From Lacibacter sp. H375 (GTDB lineage: Bacteria; Bacteroidota; Bacteroidia; Chitinophagales; Chitinophagaceae), in contig NZ_JBBKTT010000001.1 in assembly GCF_037892425.1 (NCBI RefSeq), forward strand, positions 4,030,001-4,094,000: 64,000 nt of DNA, read 5' to 3'. Shown here in pieces: positions 2,766 through 32,613 of the stretch. Position 1 is the first letter of the stretch. Every line of letters begins with the position of its first letter. Both the position numbers and the translations under genes were made by a program. The notes below the pieces were generated by a model that was given only the letters and a program-made list of their open reading frames with translations, was not told the DNA's origin and did not search any database.

Positions 2766-3740
2766 TTACGAAGCTTCTTTTTTGTTTTCAGCACCACTCA
2801 TCTCTTCATTGAGCCTTTTATCGCTCTGGCGCTTGAGTAGCCGGATGCTGAGATTTAATTCAAAGCCAATTAACAATACAAGTGAAATAAAATTTACAAA
2901 GATCATCAGGATCAGGATAGTACCAATGGATCCATAGATCGTGTACGTTGCAAAATTATTTATCCAATAAGAGAACATGAAGGTGAAAAGGATAATGAGA
3001 GCACTTGCCACAATAGAACCCGGCGAGATCAGCTTCCACTTTTTCTCAACCGATGGTGCATGCCTGTAAATAAATGCAATGGAATAAAAAAACAACCCAA
3101 CGATCACTACCCAACGTACAATTATGATGAGCCATTTGATGAATACACTGTCGATCTTTAATAACAGCAACAACCAATTGAATAATGCACCTTGTGTGAT
3201 GAGTAGTAAAATACTGGCGATGAAAATAAGAATGATCACAAAGGTTAAACGGATGGCTTTCCAACGATAGGCGAAGAATGCTTTGCTTTCTTTTTCATGG
3301 ATCGATTGATTAAAGCTATGAATGATCCCCAATACTGCATTAGACGAAAAGTAAAGTGATGTAAGAAAACCAATCGAAAGCAAACTGTTCTTGGGACGCT
3401 TAAAAAAATCGGCCAGGAAATTTTCCACGGCATCACGTGTAGCAGCATTCGGTGTTATTTCCCGTACAAACGAATTCACTTCGTTGTAAAACTGATCTGC
3501 AATAGGAAAGAGCGGCACCAATGAAAATAAAAAGATACAGGCAGGCGGCAGGGCCATAATAAAGTTGAACGAAATAGCTGCGGCACGTTGATTTAAACTG
3601 CCTTTCTTGATCTGCTGAACAAAGAAACGGGTCACCTCGAACAACGAAATACCTTCGAACCCAAAAGGCCGGAAACGTTTACTGAAACGGATGATCGTCC
3701 GTATAACAGGCAGGCGGTAAATGAGTTCTTCAATCGTCAT
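2766..3740 (-). CDS. YihY/BrkB-family inner-membrane protein
   Basis: 324-aa polytopic membrane protein. After a basic N-terminal amphipathic region of about 45 residues (RFSKRFRPFGFEG) there are about six membrane segments, beginning with AAAISFNFIMALPPACIFLFSLVPLF, whose N-terminal RAAAISF is the hallmark of the YihY/BrkB family. The family was once mistaken for RNase BN and its function is not established. A Lys/Glu-rich tail ends the protein. It starts 27 bases after the stop of mltG and is probably in the same leftward transcription unit. Confidence 0.83.
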   Translation of the reverse strand: MTIEELIYRLPVIRTIIRFSKRFRPFGFEGISLFEVTRFFVQQIKKGSLNQRAAAISFNFIMALPPACIFLFSLVPLFPIADQFYNEVNSFVREITPNAATRDAVENFLADFFKRPKNSLLSIGFLTSLYFSSNAVLGIIHSFNQSIHEKESKAFFAYRWKAIRLTFVIILIFIASILLLITQGALFNWLLLLLKIDSVFIKWLIIIVRWVVIVGLFFYSIAFIYRHAPSVEKKWKLISPGSIVASALIILFTFMFSYWINNFATYTIYGSIGTILILMIFVNFISLVLLIGFELNLSIRLLKRQSDKRLNEEMSGAENKKEAS

Positions 3741-28100: not shown

Positions 28101-29618
28101 TTAGTAAAAGCTCAAAACAAGTAAGCCCGTTTGTAATTCAACTTGTTTTACTGCTGCTTTCGCAATTTCTCCACTGAGGAATGCTTCCTTTTCCTGTTGA
28201 GAAGTATAATAGAAAAAGTAATACCTGACACTATGTTGCCTGATCTCCGTCAGTAATTCTTTTGTATAATAAGAAGGTTTGGTGATGGTGTAAAATTGGT
28301 TCTTTGACAGATAAGCAAACACCATGCACTCATCCACTTTAGCGTTTGATGTAAACGATCCTTTTATTTGTTGCTGCTTCATTTGCTCAGCAGTATCAAA
28401 AATGCTTTTGTGACCATACACCTGATCTTTTAGTTGATTAATTGGTTCAAGTAAAAAGCTTCCAAAGAAAAATGACCAAACAAATAAACGTTGCCACTTA
28501 TTCATCTGCACCTGCAGAAACGATTGTTGCATCAAAAAAGCGCCTGCAATAAAAAAGATAAAAGATGTTGCCCAGATAAATCTCGTTTCCAGATGCAGCA
28601 ATAAATAACCTGATGGCAATGCCAGCATCCCAATAAGCAAATACAACCACTCTCTTGTTTTGTGTTTGAAGTACATAAAACCACTCACAAAGAATATTGC
28701 AGGTGCCAGAAACGAAAGATCATGTATACATTTTAACCATGCCTGAAAATTGAACAGCACAACTCTTATTTGGTGCAACGCAACGGTTAAAAAAGGAACC
28801 GATTGCAGGTTATCAACTTTTACATGCCAGGGATCTTCCCACACTGATGATGAACCTTCATGCGGTGGCGTTTGCATCACAGGGCCAGGCAGAGGTTCAC
28901 CGGTAAAATTCCAATGTGCATTGAATTTTCCAAAAGCAATCATCCATTCACCATATTTCCAATGCAAGGCTATTAACCAAGGAAACGTAAAAAGAAAAAA
29001 TGTAAAGAAGCCTGCAGCAAGTTGTTTCACTGCATTGCTTCGGTTTGGATTCAGAAAAATATGAATGACCAGGAAATGAAAAATAAAGAACGGAAAGCCA
29101 TACGATTTGGCGAGATAGAATAAAGCGCCAAGAAAACCCGCCAGTAAATTTTTAGTAATGCTTTCAAAGAAATCTTCCTGCTTAATAAGATTGAAATAAA
29201 TAAGTAAAAGGAAGACAAGCAATGCATCGGCTGCCAATTCAAAATAACAATAGTGAAGCAGTATGATGACACTTGTAAACTGGATGGCTGATTTCAACCA
29301 ATCGTCTAATAAAAATTTATTGACTAAGGAATAAACAGCATACAACGAGCCAAGAGAGAAAATAAGGTTACTGATCTTAAATGCAGACCAATCGTTTAAC
29401 CCTGATTTAAGCAAAGGCACTACCAACCATGAATGCAAGGGATTCCAGAAACCATTCACTGCAAGTTTCCATTCGCCTTTTAGATAGTGATGTGCCACTT
29501 CCATATAACCAACCGCATCAAGATCGGATACGTATTGATAAAGCGGCCACGTAACAGCAAACAGGATACAGAACAGGGCAAGTGAAAACGGAAGTCGTTG
29601 TTTATGCAGTAAGTTCAT
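28101..29618 (-). CDS. GT-C-like polytopic membrane protein
   Basis: 505-aa membrane protein with about 10 to 12 hydrophobic segments. Near the N-terminus, after the first segment, is SDLDAVGYMEVAHHYLKGEWKLAVNGFWNPLHSWL, the periplasmic-loop pattern with a conserved Asp that resembles glycosyltransferase family 39/ArnT-like enzymes, which use polyprenyl-phosphate sugars. The C-terminal 120 residues are soluble. No other signature was seen, so the enzyme call is tentative. Its first 17 bases overlap the end of the upstream BtuF-like gene. Confidence 0.68.
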   Translation of the reverse strand: MNLLHKQRLPFSLALFCILFAVTWPLYQYVSDLDAVGYMEVAHHYLKGEWKLAVNGFWNPLHSWLVVPLLKSGLNDWSAFKISNLIFSLGSLYAVYSLVNKFLLDDWLKSAIQFTSVIILLHYCYFELAADALLVFLLLIYFNLIKQEDFFESITKNLLAGFLGALFYLAKSYGFPFFIFHFLVIHIFLNPNRSNAVKQLAAGFFTFFLFTFPWLIALHWKYGEWMIAFGKFNAHWNFTGEPLPGPVMQTPPHEGSSSVWEDPWHVKVDNLQSVPFLTVALHQIRVVLFNFQAWLKCIHDLSFLAPAIFFVSGFMYFKHKTREWLYLLIGMLALPSGYLLLHLETRFIWATSFIFFIAGAFLMQQSFLQVQMNKWQRLFVWSFFFGSFLLEPINQLKDQVYGHKSIFDTAEQMKQQQIKGSFTSNAKVDECMVFAYLSKNQFYTITKPSYYTKELLTEIRQHSVRYYFFYYTSQQEKEAFLSGEIAKAAVKQVELQTGLLVLSFY

Positions 29619-30429
29619 CGCTTAAAAATAAGCTTTCTCTTAGTTTCATGAAATATTCGGGTGCATATAAAGTTCTGCTGCCATACCAACTAAACAATTC
29701 ACCATCAACAATTTTACAAACAGGCAATTGCTGAAGTCTATTTTGCTGCATCCACTCCTGTATGAATGCATCAATATGTTTTTGTTTGAAAGGAAATGGT
29801 TCTGAAGAAAATAACACAGCTTCAACATCTCGTTTCATCAACTCTTCAACAGTAACGGCAGGATACCGTTGTTCGGAAGCAAATACATTTTCAAAACCGG
29901 CCAATTGCATCATATGATTAATAAATGTATCGCCACCTACAGTCATGTACGGCTCTTGCCAGATTAGATATGTAGCTTTGATGGGCTTTGTAATAAAAGG
30001 TAACTCCAAAAAACTATTCTGAATTTTGTTGATGAGTTCTTGTGCTTTAGCTGGTCGATCCGTAAGGAAGCCCAGATGTTCAATTACTTCATAACTGTCT
30101 TGTAGATTACTGACATCACTGCAATAAACCGGGCAAAATTGTTGAACAGCCTCTACCTGCTCTTTTACATTTTCTTCTTTGCTGGCAATGACCAGATCAG
30201 GCTTTAACGATTCGATTAATGGAAGGTTCAATTGTTTAGTTCCGCCAATTCTTGTTTTGTTTCTGAACCATTCTTCAGGATGCACGCAAAACTTGGTGAT
30301 GCCGATGACCTCATCGTGTAAAACAAGATCAAATAATAATTCAGTGAGTGATGGAACGAGGGAAATGATCCGTTGGGGTGGGAAAGGGATAGATATAAAA
30401 TTGCCTGTTTGGTCCTGAACTTGTTTCAT
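29602..30429 (-). CDS. BtuF-like helical-backbone metal-receptor protein, no signal peptide
   Basis: 275-aa protein with the fold of cobalamin or siderophore binding proteins: RIISLVPSLTELLFDL near the N-terminus, ESLKPDLVIASKEENVKEQVEAV, a long backbone helix (about 120-145) and YLIWQEPYMTVGGDTFINHMMQLAGFENVF. Substrate-binding proteins of this class are normally periplasmic, but the sequence begins MKQVQDQTGNFISIPF without any signal peptide, so it appears cytoplasmic. No ABC permease or ATPase is nearby. Role unknown; cobalamin or metal chelate handling is plausible only by fold. Confidence 0.78.
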   Translation of the reverse strand: MKQVQDQTGNFISIPFPPQRIISLVPSLTELLFDLVLHDEVIGITKFCVHPEEWFRNKTRIGGTKQLNLPLIESLKPDLVIASKEENVKEQVEAVQQFCPVYCSDVSNLQDSYEVIEHLGFLTDRPAKAQELINKIQNSFLELPFITKPIKATYLIWQEPYMTVGGDTFINHMMQLAGFENVFASEQRYPAVTVEELMKRDVEAVLFSSEPFPFKQKHIDAFIQEWMQQNRLQQLPVCKIVDGELFSWYGSRTLYAPEYFMKLRESLFLSDELTA

Positions 30430-30579
30430 TTCATTTTCAAACAGGCAATTTAATTAATTCAGCGGTTCCTTTGGTGTTTGATGGTTTTCCTTGGTACGAA
30501 ATTTAATTTTACTAATTCAAAGGATTTTGGAACCCTGCATGTCTTTCTTTCAGAATATCTCCTTTTTACGGGCAGATAA

Positions 30580-31021
30580 AAAGAAAAAAAGATCTGGATT
30601 TCAAAGGATGTTAGTTTGGATTTTACTTGGTTTTCTTAGGATCCAGATCTTTTTAATAAAGCCTTTTTTGGTCTCTTGGTTTCCGCAACAGAATGTTCTG
30701 TTTTGGTGGCTTTTGGTTCTTCTTCGGACGTTAGGATAGGTCGGTTCTTCGGTTAGGATGTTTGGATTTTTCTTTGGTTTTTCTTCGGACGTTTGGACTT
30801 TTTTGGTTCTTCTTTAGGATTATTGGTGGTTTCTTCAGTTAGGACATCATTGGATTTTTCAACGGTTTTTTGGTTTTCTTACAGGTTGTTGGATTAAAAC
30901 TATTTCTTAAAAACGGAAGTCGACTGATATTGGATTTTTAATTCTGGTTTTTTAATGGATTTGGATATCAAGTCTAAGTGTTTTTCTTAAATCAGCAGTT
31001 TGATTGTGTTTCAATCAACTT
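30580..31021 (-). ncRNA. candidate A/C-rich non-coding RNA (or relic of a Lys/Pro-rich gene)
   Basis: A leftward unit inside an 825-base gene-free stretch. A promoter at 31028-31058 should start RNA near 31021, and a 14-bp stem (30586-30599 with 30641-30654) followed by a U-rich tract at 30590-30578 should end it. The RNA is rich in A and C and poor in G. Between 30596 and 30965 it has 18 UCC triplets, many as UCCAA or UCCUAA followed by GAAGAA and ACC, giving degenerate units of 20-30 bases. The 5' end 31024-31012 can pair over 13 positions (two G-U) with 30926-30914, just before UUUUU. All minus-strand frames are broken by stops, but parts read like a Lys/Pro/Glu-rich protein, so a decayed gene is the main alternative. 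Confidence 0.4.
30586..30654 (-). terminator. long-loop terminator of the candidate RNA
   Basis: Arms AAAAAGATCTGGAT (30586-30599) and ATCCAGATCTTTTT (30641-30654) are perfect complements over 14 bp with a 41-base loop. On the minus strand the stem runs into a 13-base tract with twelve U. Confidence 0.6.
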
Positions 31022-31027
31022 CCGATA

Positions 31028-31058
31028 CAAAAGTAAAGGGACTGTTAAGACTTTACAA
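31028..31058 (-). promoter_or_regulatory. Bacteroidota-type promoter of the candidate RNA
   Basis: On the minus strand TTG (31058-31056), a 20-base spacer, then TACTTTTG (31035-31028), a full match to TANNTTTG. No gene starts within 590 bases downstream. Confidence 0.6.
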
Positions 31059-31101
31059 GAGCACTATTTCTCTTTTTCCCAGCGTCGGTATTTACCCCGT
31101 C

Positions 31102-31119
31102 ATGCGTAGAACTACGCAT
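31102..31119. promoter_or_regulatory. perfect 18-bp palindrome, possible operator
   Basis: ATGCGTAG-AA-CTACGCAT, upstream of the leftward promoter by about 45 bases. It may be a dimer binding site for a regulator, or a stem; no U tract follows it. Confidence 0.45.
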
Positions 31120-31200
31120 CTCAATTCCGTGTACTTACGTCTCCAATCCAATTATTCTACTAATACCTGCGCATTTCAGCCGTAAAAGACTCCTTAAAAC

Positions 31201-31254: not shown

Positions 31255-32613
31255 TTACTTCGCCAGGGATTGAATGATGTCGTACTTGGTAACAATATGA
31301 AAATTGCCGGCCTCATCCTTACTTAATACGGCCCCATTCTCTTTGCTGATGAGTGTACTAAGTCGCTCAATAGGTGTATCAAATGCAACAATGGGCAATG
31401 GAGCTTCCATTACGGCCTCAACACTTGCGTGTTTTATTTCGGGATTGGAAAATACTTTATTGAATAACCCATTTTCAGAAATGGAACCAACCTGACCTTC
31501 GCCATTAATAACAGGTATTTGTTCAATATCGTATTTCTTCATCAGTTCTACTGCTTCTGCAACTGTGTGCGTGGGTTCAATACTGATCAGTCGGTTATGT
31601 GCACGTGAAGAAACAATGTCTTTAAATGTTTTTACATCGAGAAAACCACGTTCCATCATCCACTGATCATTATACACCTTACCAACATAGCGACTGCCAT
31701 GATCATGAAACACACAAACAACAAGATCATCTTTCTTTAAACGGTCTTTCAATTGCATCAATCCCTGCAAACAACTTCCTGCGCTGTAGCCGCAGAACAA
31801 ACCTTCTTCTTTTGCAAGGCGGCGAGCCATAATAGCACCGTCTTTATCTGTTACCTGTTCAAAATGGTCGATCACGCTCATATCATAATTCTTCGGTACA
31901 AAGTCTTCACCAAACCCTTCGCTTATATATGGATGAACTTCGCCCATATCAATTTCACCGGTGCGGAAATATTTTGTAAGTAAAGAGCCATACACATCTA
32001 TGGCCCATACCTGTATGTTTGGATTTTTTTCCTTCAGGTATTTTGCAGCACCTGTAATAGTACCACCTGTTCCTGCAGTGCAAACAAAGTGTGTGATCTT
32101 ACCATCGGTTTGCTCCCAAATTTCCGGGCCTGTTGTTTCGTAATGTGCTAACCTGTTTGCAAGATTATCATATTGATTCATGTGTAAGGAATTAGGAACT
32201 TCCTTTGCCAGCCTTGCTGCCACACTGTAATAACTACGTGGATCTTCGGGTAAAACATTTGTTGGGCAAACAATTACTTCTGCACCAACAGCCTTTAAAA
32301 TGTCAGCTTTTTCTTTCGATTGTTTATCGGTAGTGACGAAAATACATTTGTAACCTTTTACTACTGCAGCCAATGCAAGCCCCATACCTGTGTTGCCACT
32401 AGTGCCTTCAATGATAGTGCCGCCGGGTTTTAATCTACCTTCCTGTTCAGCAACTTCAACCATCTTTAACGCCATGCGGTCTTTAATGGAATTGCCAGGA
32501 TTGAAATAATCAACCTTGGCGGCAACAGTGCAGGGAAGTTGGCGGGTAATTTTATTTAACCTGATGATAGGTGTGTTCCCGATTGTTTCGAGAATATTGT
32601 TCTTGATATTCAT
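31255..32613 (-). CDS. cystathionine beta-synthase with tandem CBS domains
   Basis: 452-aa PLP enzyme of the cysteine synthase/cystathionine beta-synthase family, acting in cysteine or homocysteine metabolism. The PLP lysine is in GNSIKDRMA (Lys44), the phosphate-binding loop is EGTSGNTGMG (69-78), and FVCTAGTGGTITGAAKYL follows. Unlike plain CysK, it carries a C-terminal pair of CBS domains (about 335-452: LISIEPTHTVAEAVELMKKYDIEQIPVINGEGQVGSIS...), expected to bind adenosyl ligands and regulate activity. O-acetylserine-type substrates are an alternative. It is followed by a terminator and then the gene-free locus. Confidence 0.88.
   Translation of the reverse strand: MNIKNNILETIGNTPIIRLNKITRQLPCTVAAKVDYFNPGNSIKDRMALKMVEVAEQEGRLKPGGTIIEGTSGNTGMGLALAAVVKGYKCIFVTTDKQSKEKADILKAVGAEVIVCPTNVLPEDPRSYYSVAARLAKEVPNSLHMNQYDNLANRLAHYETTGPEIWEQTDGKITHFVCTAGTGGTITGAAKYLKEKNPNIQVWAIDVYGSLLTKYFRTGEIDMGEVHPYISEGFGEDFVPKNYDMSVIDHFEQVTDKDGAIMARRLAKEEGLFCGYSAGSCLQGLMQLKDRLKKDDLVVCVFHDHGSRYVGKVYNDQWMMERGFLDVKTFKDIVSSRAHNRLISIEPTHTVAEAVELMKKYDIEQIPVINGEGQVGSISENGLFNKVFSNPEIKHASVEAVMEAPLPIVAFDTPIERLSTLISKENGAVLSKDEAGNFHIVTKYDIIQSLAK

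Follow-up and report, generated by a model that had tools for sequence, protein, structure and literature searches.

Between two leftward genes of Lacibacter sp. H375 lies what is very likely, judging from its sequence, a real RNA gene, which belongs to a lineage-restricted, multicopy family of non-coding RNAs and would be transcribed from a promoter of its own. We lean towards the view that its product acts as a decoy for a single-stranded-RNA-binding protein, resembling CsrB/RsmY in action and not being a member of that family. The DNA studied, called here the window, is the whole stretch of 64,000 nt from position 4,030,001 to 4,094,000 of NZ_JBBKTT010000001.1, and all positions given are window positions.

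The RNA gene and its locus

Both flanking genes run leftward, in the same direction as the RNA gene (cf. Table 1). The initial annotation had proposed a leftward transcript of about 440 bases with its own promoter and terminator, and the prediction of a free-standing RNA gene was borne out by inspection of the sequence. Promoter, terminator and CC doublets all lie on the minus, C-rich strand; a TTG (31058-31056) is followed after 20 nt by TACTTTTG (31035-31028), a -7 element that we take to be of the Bacteroidota type; and a perfect 14-bp stem stands directly before UUCUUUUUAUC, so that promoter and terminator together predict a transcript of about 440-449 nt. The 41-nt loop of this terminator carries CC doublets in the window copy. 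A strict terminator script found a hairpin followed by a T-run in 37 of the 108 copies of the family, a few of these hairpins being part of the following array unit, and terminators are thus established for a minority of copies only.

Table 1. Features of the RNA locus and its flanks, in window positions
Feature	Position	Strand	Remarks
RNA gene	30575..31023	-	about 440-449 nt; 35 CC doublets, no CCC; start placed by inference within a few bases of 31023
18-bp palindrome ATGCGTAGTTCTACGCAT	31102-31119	-	upstream control block
GTAAATAC	31095-31088	-	upstream control block (both blocks together 31088..31119)
Inverted repeat GAGCA-N4-TGCTCTTG	31056..31072	-	overlaps the -33 element; window copy imperfect, GAGAA-ATAG-TGCTCTTG
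-7 element TACTTTTG	31028..31035	-	TTG-N20-TACTTTTG in the window
5' helix, 5' arm	31011..31024	-	14-bp helix
5' helix, 3' arm	30914..30927	-	adjoins the conserved AAUCCAAUAUC
A/C-rich, largely unpaired repeat body	30655..30913	-	AUCC and GAAGAA-AACC units
Intrinsic terminator 1	30586..30654	-	14-bp stem, 30654-30641 with 30599-30586; loop of 41 nt, then UUCUUUUUAUC
Second terminator-like hairpin	30398..30451	-	14-bp arms, 30451-30438 and 30411-30398
BtuF-like periplasmic-binding protein gene (Peripla_BP_2)	29602..30429	-	flank, downstream of the RNA
Cysteine synthase/cystathionine beta-synthase type gene (PALP + CBS)	31255..32613	-	flank, upstream of the RNA

About 130 bases past terminator 1 a second hairpin follows, the loop of which contains in the window the start codon of the btuF-like gene, and an inverted repeat of 7-15 bp was present at this place in all 13 same-genus loci examined. 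Its loop consists of GAAA only in two of these loci (L007 and L008), and in G010, a genome without a btuF-like gene there, the hairpin is directly followed by a T-run.

The statement that no frame is open proved true in substance, since stop-free runs on the RNA strand reach 70 codons at most, as compared with 38 to 70 in 11 relatives; no intact frame was found among the 12 RNAs examined. A mechanical ORF of 82 amino acids is located on the strand opposite the RNA.

A multicopy family with a common promoter

Conservation and a covariance search in relatives had been suggested as checks, and both turned out positive. A DNA search matched all 13 same-genus genomes; on reading, twelve of the matches were the RNA, and the thirteenth (G005) was a match of 32 bases in apparently coding sequence; weak matches in G005, G024, G033, G035 and G036 were not counted, being by eye chance hits that mostly fell in coding sequence. 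The same RNA 5' end was present in G015, G017 (two near-identical copies) and G034, and in G032 a doublet-rich stretch without that 5' end occupied the matched place. A covariance model of the 5' domain, built from 14 sequences, matched 143 of 394 Chitinophagaceae genomes and 38 of 101 genera, so that the RNA is widespread in this family. The matches numbered from one to at least nine per genome, and, as nine is the number of candidates scored per genome, higher copy counts are possible. The presence counts are lower bounds, since the model misses two genomes that carry the RNA (G006 and G010); stricter filters applied in searches of more than 40 genomes, and model matches of about 30 bits and less, which include the same helix on the opposite strand, were left unused. 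In an order-wide draw, the family make-up of which is not given, 56 of 396 genomes matched, and all 56 were Chitinophagaceae.

A 22-base pattern retrieved at least 119 stretches from named genomes. Among the 80 listed, 76 matched the model at E <= 0.001; L154, L166, L181 and L190 did not, and L171 was omitted from a later step. The genera listed, Flavisolibacter, Ferruginibacter, Ginsengibacter, Terrimonas, Flavihumibacter, Paraflavitalea and others, are presumably all Chitinophagaceae (a taxonomy look-up placed Flavisolibacter there), and the other listed stretches came from Bacteroidota bins that are, by title, less closely placed. Some genomes contain head-to-tail arrays of the RNA gene, as in L094 (G279:C27), where three units at intervals of about 408 nt lie within positions 1700-2850, every one of them with the promoter and a hairpin followed by a T-run. 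A short possible relative with AAAUCCAA words, a weak model match of 34 bits, was seen at another position of a same-genus genome (L055, G002:C21). Mobile elements were considered and rejected as a source, because the RNA had no match in plasmids or phages at the sensitivity of a distant blastn search, and the 22-base signature had no exact match in viral contigs. In the window, no match attained the gathering score of any Rfam family, and the 17 matches of a relaxed search at the locus included nothing meaningful. No paper on such an RNA was among those listed by a literature search with incomplete coverage of subscription papers and preprints.

The promoter is common to about 100 of the 108 copies. 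For its alignment 103 of the 108 were used, 101 of them anchored on TGCTCTTG, with 97 of the anchors at 41-43 bases; the TGCTCTTG box begins 42 bases ahead of the RNA's AAGUUGAUUG in 80 of the 101 promoters. The aligned promoters share a TA..TTTG element and the inverted repeat GAGCA-N4-TGCTC, which overlaps the -33 element and is preceded by an AAAA run. Farther upstream, GTAWWTAC starts 32 bases above the TGCTCTTG box, and a weaker G.....TTACG block lies 52 to 42 bases above it. When this promoter signature was searched for in 195 genomes, 107 places in 63 genomes were found, versus 2 for a reversed-pattern control. The loci returned for 30 of the 107 places hold 37 sites, of which 29 have the 5' helix arm (at most one mismatch) and 9-22 CC doublets within 242 nt. 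Six of the remaining eight, which lack the arm, still have 13-20 doublets in 242 nt, and two have 3 and 5, as compared with a mean of 7.7 (sd 3.5) in control stretches of the same loci, 54 of 435 of which reached 12 or more; promoter and doublet body therefore go together even without the 5' arm. At one arm-less signature site (L246, G227) the body is, by eye, a near-perfect tandem repeat of about 80 nt. In the genome of Lacibacter sp. H375 itself, a simple box pattern had two sites, the window locus and one other.

Neighbouring ORFs were scanned at 84 of 90 places upstream and 76 of 85 downstream, same-genus loci being left out, and downstream L183 as well. Among the 84 upstream neighbours there were 39 PALP-CBS proteins and 6 response regulators of the NarL/LuxR type; downstream, the BtuF-like family occurred in 26 of 76. 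The place between the PALP-CBS and BtuF-like genes is probably ancestral, the RNA having presumably dispersed later. By clustering, a NarL/LuxR-type regulator gene lies divergent from the RNA in L054, L138, L139, L178, L179 and L186 and downstream of it in L130, and such an adjacent regulator is a candidate for recognising the promoter boxes. None of the regular neighbours scanned encodes an obvious RNA-binding partner. One copy (L098, about 3388-3680) lies, by eye, near an apparent gene for a cold-shock-domain protein.

Folded ends and an open body of CC doublets

The window RNA (449 nt) consists of 45% A, 22% C and 12% G, and its C residues occur as 27 singles and 35 exact doublets (18 UCC, 16 ACC and 1 GCC), with no run of three or more. 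Composition shuffles (2000) gave on average 12.9 doublets (sd 2.9, maximum 23). The 34 (U/A)CC sites compare with a mean of 10.8 (sd 3.8, maximum 35) in 2544 windows of the 64-kb background, some of which overlap the RNA itself. The 18 UCC triplets that the initial annotation had counted in 370 bases are correct for the whole transcript, whereas sub-windows of 371 nt hold 16 and 14.

The same pattern was found in the copies analysed across the family, within the window's genus at 22-36 doublets per RNA. In the 104 of 108 copies covered by the analyses of the tail, there were 1965 CC doublets versus 938 in composition shuffles, and longer C runs were fewer than expected (188, 30 and 3 runs of three, four and five, versus 223, 52 and 12). 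Isolated CC is thus typical of the body, U or A is favoured before it, and AUCCA, GUCCA and GAAAAACC exceed dinucleotide shuffles several-fold. The spacing of doublets peaks at 6-8 and 10-12 nt: from a UCC to a following UCC, 279 of 632 steps measured 6-8 nt, and from a UCC to a following ACC, 198 of 437 measured 9-12 nt. The density of UCC climbs at the start site from 0.58 to 3-5 per 100 nt, with the caveat that many members were found by a pattern containing one UCC.

The 14 pairs of the 5' helix were formed in 91.9% of the cells of 107 distinct sequences, versus 16-49% in slid controls. Covariation was modest: three pairs changed on both sides, a number reached by 31 of 500 shuffles, and 22 cells had two-sided changes versus 11.4 in shuffles. 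Among the first 14 sequences, pairing was kept in 92.3% of cells, and two pairs changed on both sides, a number reached by 140 of 500 shuffles. The figures for the 107 sequences are biased in favour of the helix, since their alignment had been adjusted to the structure and the pattern that retrieved many of the members contains the 3' arm. The whole window RNA folds only slightly better than chance (z -1.83; equally good folds in 3 of 100 shuffles).

The initial annotation had described repeated short unpaired motifs, and this was supported by the doublet counts together with the predicted unpaired probability, which averaged 0.74 for C's in doublets and 0.49 for single ones, as against 0.68 in doublet-keeping shuffles; all 12 RNAs exceeded the mean of their own controls, the gain over shuffles being small. 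Among five close pairs of RNAs, doublet C's differed at 8 of 228 positions, versus 9 of 67 for other C's (Fisher p 0.005) and 107 of 1047 for all non-doublet sites (p 0.0008), in a test made in one direction, with L001 used twice and few events; four separate pairs gave 4 of 178 for doublets versus 72 of 842 for others (p 0.002). Differences between close relatives are thus about one fourth as frequent at doublet C's as at other C's. In the genus alignment of nine sequences, doublet columns were not significantly more conserved (difference 0.063; 723 of 10000 permutations).

A putative decoy, its partner and other readings

These features led us to propose a mechanism in which a dedicated promoter with conserved palindromic boxes would make an untranslated RNA of a few hundred nucleotides, the ends of which would be folded by the 5' helix and the terminator hairpin around a mostly single-stranded body. 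The many (U/A)CC doublets displayed there at short preferred spacings would be binding sites for a single-stranded-RNA-binding protein, and production of the RNA would titrate this protein off its other RNA targets. Extra gene copies would raise the dose of decoy, and the promoter boxes would respond to a signal. The sponge suggested by the initial annotation is consistent with the computed pattern, with transcription and protein binding as its presumed part.

CsrB, RsmY and RsmZ are stand-alone decoy RNAs in which a short motif recurs many times; they have several genes per genome and conserved upstream boxes, and a regulator of the NarL/LuxR class drives the rsm genes. The RNA described here is likewise predicted to stand alone, repeats one short motif many times, has several genes per genome and a boxed promoter, and in seven loci a NarL/LuxR-type regulator gene lies beside the RNA (six divergent, one downstream). 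It differs from the CsrB type in presenting (U/A)CC within A-rich, mostly single-stranded RNA rather than GGA in hairpin loops, and in occurring in a different phylum, where CsrA (PF02599) was found in 0 of 59 relatives' genomes by a search positive in 3 of 14 control genomes. GGA sites amounted to 0.15-0.70 per 100 nt over the first 250 nt, not above the flanking bins (0.47-1.35), as against 3-5 for UCC there. The opposite strand as a GGA-rich CsrA decoy was rejected, because it is the C-rich strand that has the promoter, the terminator and the doublets, and because no CsrA was found in the 59 genomes. Overall, we give the decoy reading somewhat better than an even chance.

As to the partner, RRM proteins and Rho are our foremost candidates. 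The genome of Lacibacter sp. H375 gave five matches for RRM-1, one for the Rho RNA-binding domain and one for the cold-shock domain, and Hfq had none in this one genome searched. If the RNA is a decoy, an RRM-1 protein is a possible though tentative partner, and we hold Rho to be a rather doubtful one, to the same degree as some other protein, e.g. of the KH- or cold-shock-domain type. RRM-1 is present in 366 of 394 Chitinophagaceae genomes, and the RNA occurs in 0 of the 28 RRM-less genomes (20 of them listed, 8 taken from gaps in the list numbering) versus 143 of the 366 others (p 2e-6, kinship ignored). With only 5 of 101 genera lacking RRM and genomes not independent, this co-occurrence is suggestive but confounded, and it is weak evidence for an RRM partner.

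The rut (Rho-utilisation) RNA is mostly unstructured, has C over G and spaced pyrimidine-C doublets, and one OB fold of Rho takes a CC dinucleotide. The window RNA is similar in its excess of C over G (0.216 vs 0.122), its mostly unpaired doublets and its spacing peaks of 6-8 and 10-12, and isolated CC in open, G-poor RNA at short spacing resembles the ligand of the Rho OB fold; binding of Rho would be hypothetical. Unlike rut, it has its own intrinsic terminator and its doublets are isolated, and a role in termination would be hypothetical here. A natural Rho sponge, in which each CC doublet would fill one OB fold, bursts of RNA would lower Rho-dependent termination genome-wide, and tandem and dispersed copies would set the dose, is in our judgement rather unlikely. 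We know of no natural Rho-titrating RNA, and none appeared among the titles and abstract openings listed in our literature search.

Several other readings had to be weighed. The RNA, in which the doublets are mostly unpaired, could be a base-pairing sRNA, the many short C-rich seeds of which would pair with GG-containing sites in mRNAs. Multicopy Bacteroidota sRNAs that pair near susC starts and bind an RRM protein exist: according to one report, FopS and GibS of Bacteroides form a multicopy family linked to RbpB, an RRM-1 protein preferring single-stranded regions, and FopS, said to be deposited in Rfam, consists of a single-stranded 5' stretch with the seed, followed by a terminator (PMC11697453). 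Our RNA resembles them as a multicopy family in Bacteroidota, its binding by an RRM-1 protein being hypothetical; it differs from FopS as described there in being longer and in having a 5' helix and dozens of doublets. The FopS Rfam model had no match in the window at the gathering score and was absent from the 17 relaxed matches at the locus. Furthermore, the most constant part of each unit is two C's, the rest being A-rich and variable, which leaves little for a seed, and the body differs among relatives by many indels, some of about one unit (28-32 nt). Because the constant sequence is so small, base pairing is less likely, and we consider it quite improbable. A multivalent scaffold that would build an RNP or condensate, as a structural part rather than a decoy, fits the high valency, the preferred spacing and the folded ends; however, the computed features fit scaffold and decoy alike, with a partner that is only hypothetical, and we judge the scaffold decidedly unlikely.

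A role in cis, as an attenuator or riboswitch in the leader of the btuF-like gene, would explain why in the window's genus the RNA lies upstream of btuF on the same strand, with the second hairpin overlapping the btuF start (through this hairpin, read-through of the RNA may be linked to translation of btuF), and why the ORF nearest downstream is, in 32 of 85 loci, a BtuF-like gene on the same strand. However, another ORF was nearest in 53 of 85, by a crude pick that was wrong at least for L001 and L007, the units of the L094 array end in hairpins with T-runs of their own, the RNA is retained in G010 and G002 although a btuF orthologue is absent from that place, and the window has no Rfam match. 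As such a gene is missing downstream of many copies, a leader is very improbable. The initial annotation had also allowed for the relic of a Lys/Pro/Glu-rich gene, and the A/C-rich strand does read, by eye, as Lys/Pro/Asn codons. However, of the 156 indels counted against the window RNA only 16 have lengths divisible by 3, none of the 11 relatives preserves a frame, and seven indels of 28-32 nt amount to about one repeat unit, while the promoter shared by most copies and the doublet excess argue against relic and compositional accident alike. We find either explanation hardly credible, and on these sequence comparisons the dead gene reading is rejected.

To our knowledge, no global post-transcriptional regulator has been described for Chitinophagaceae, and an RNA that occurs in several copies, with a boxed promoter common to them and a simple pattern, points to one. 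On the preferred reading as a decoy, the RNA itself would be the bait for finding its protein. If this were Rho, the RNA would be a natural Rho-titrating RNA in bacteria without detected CsrA (59 genomes) or Hfq (one genome); if it were an RRM protein, a decoy mode would be added to the RRM-sRNA circuit of Bacteroides.
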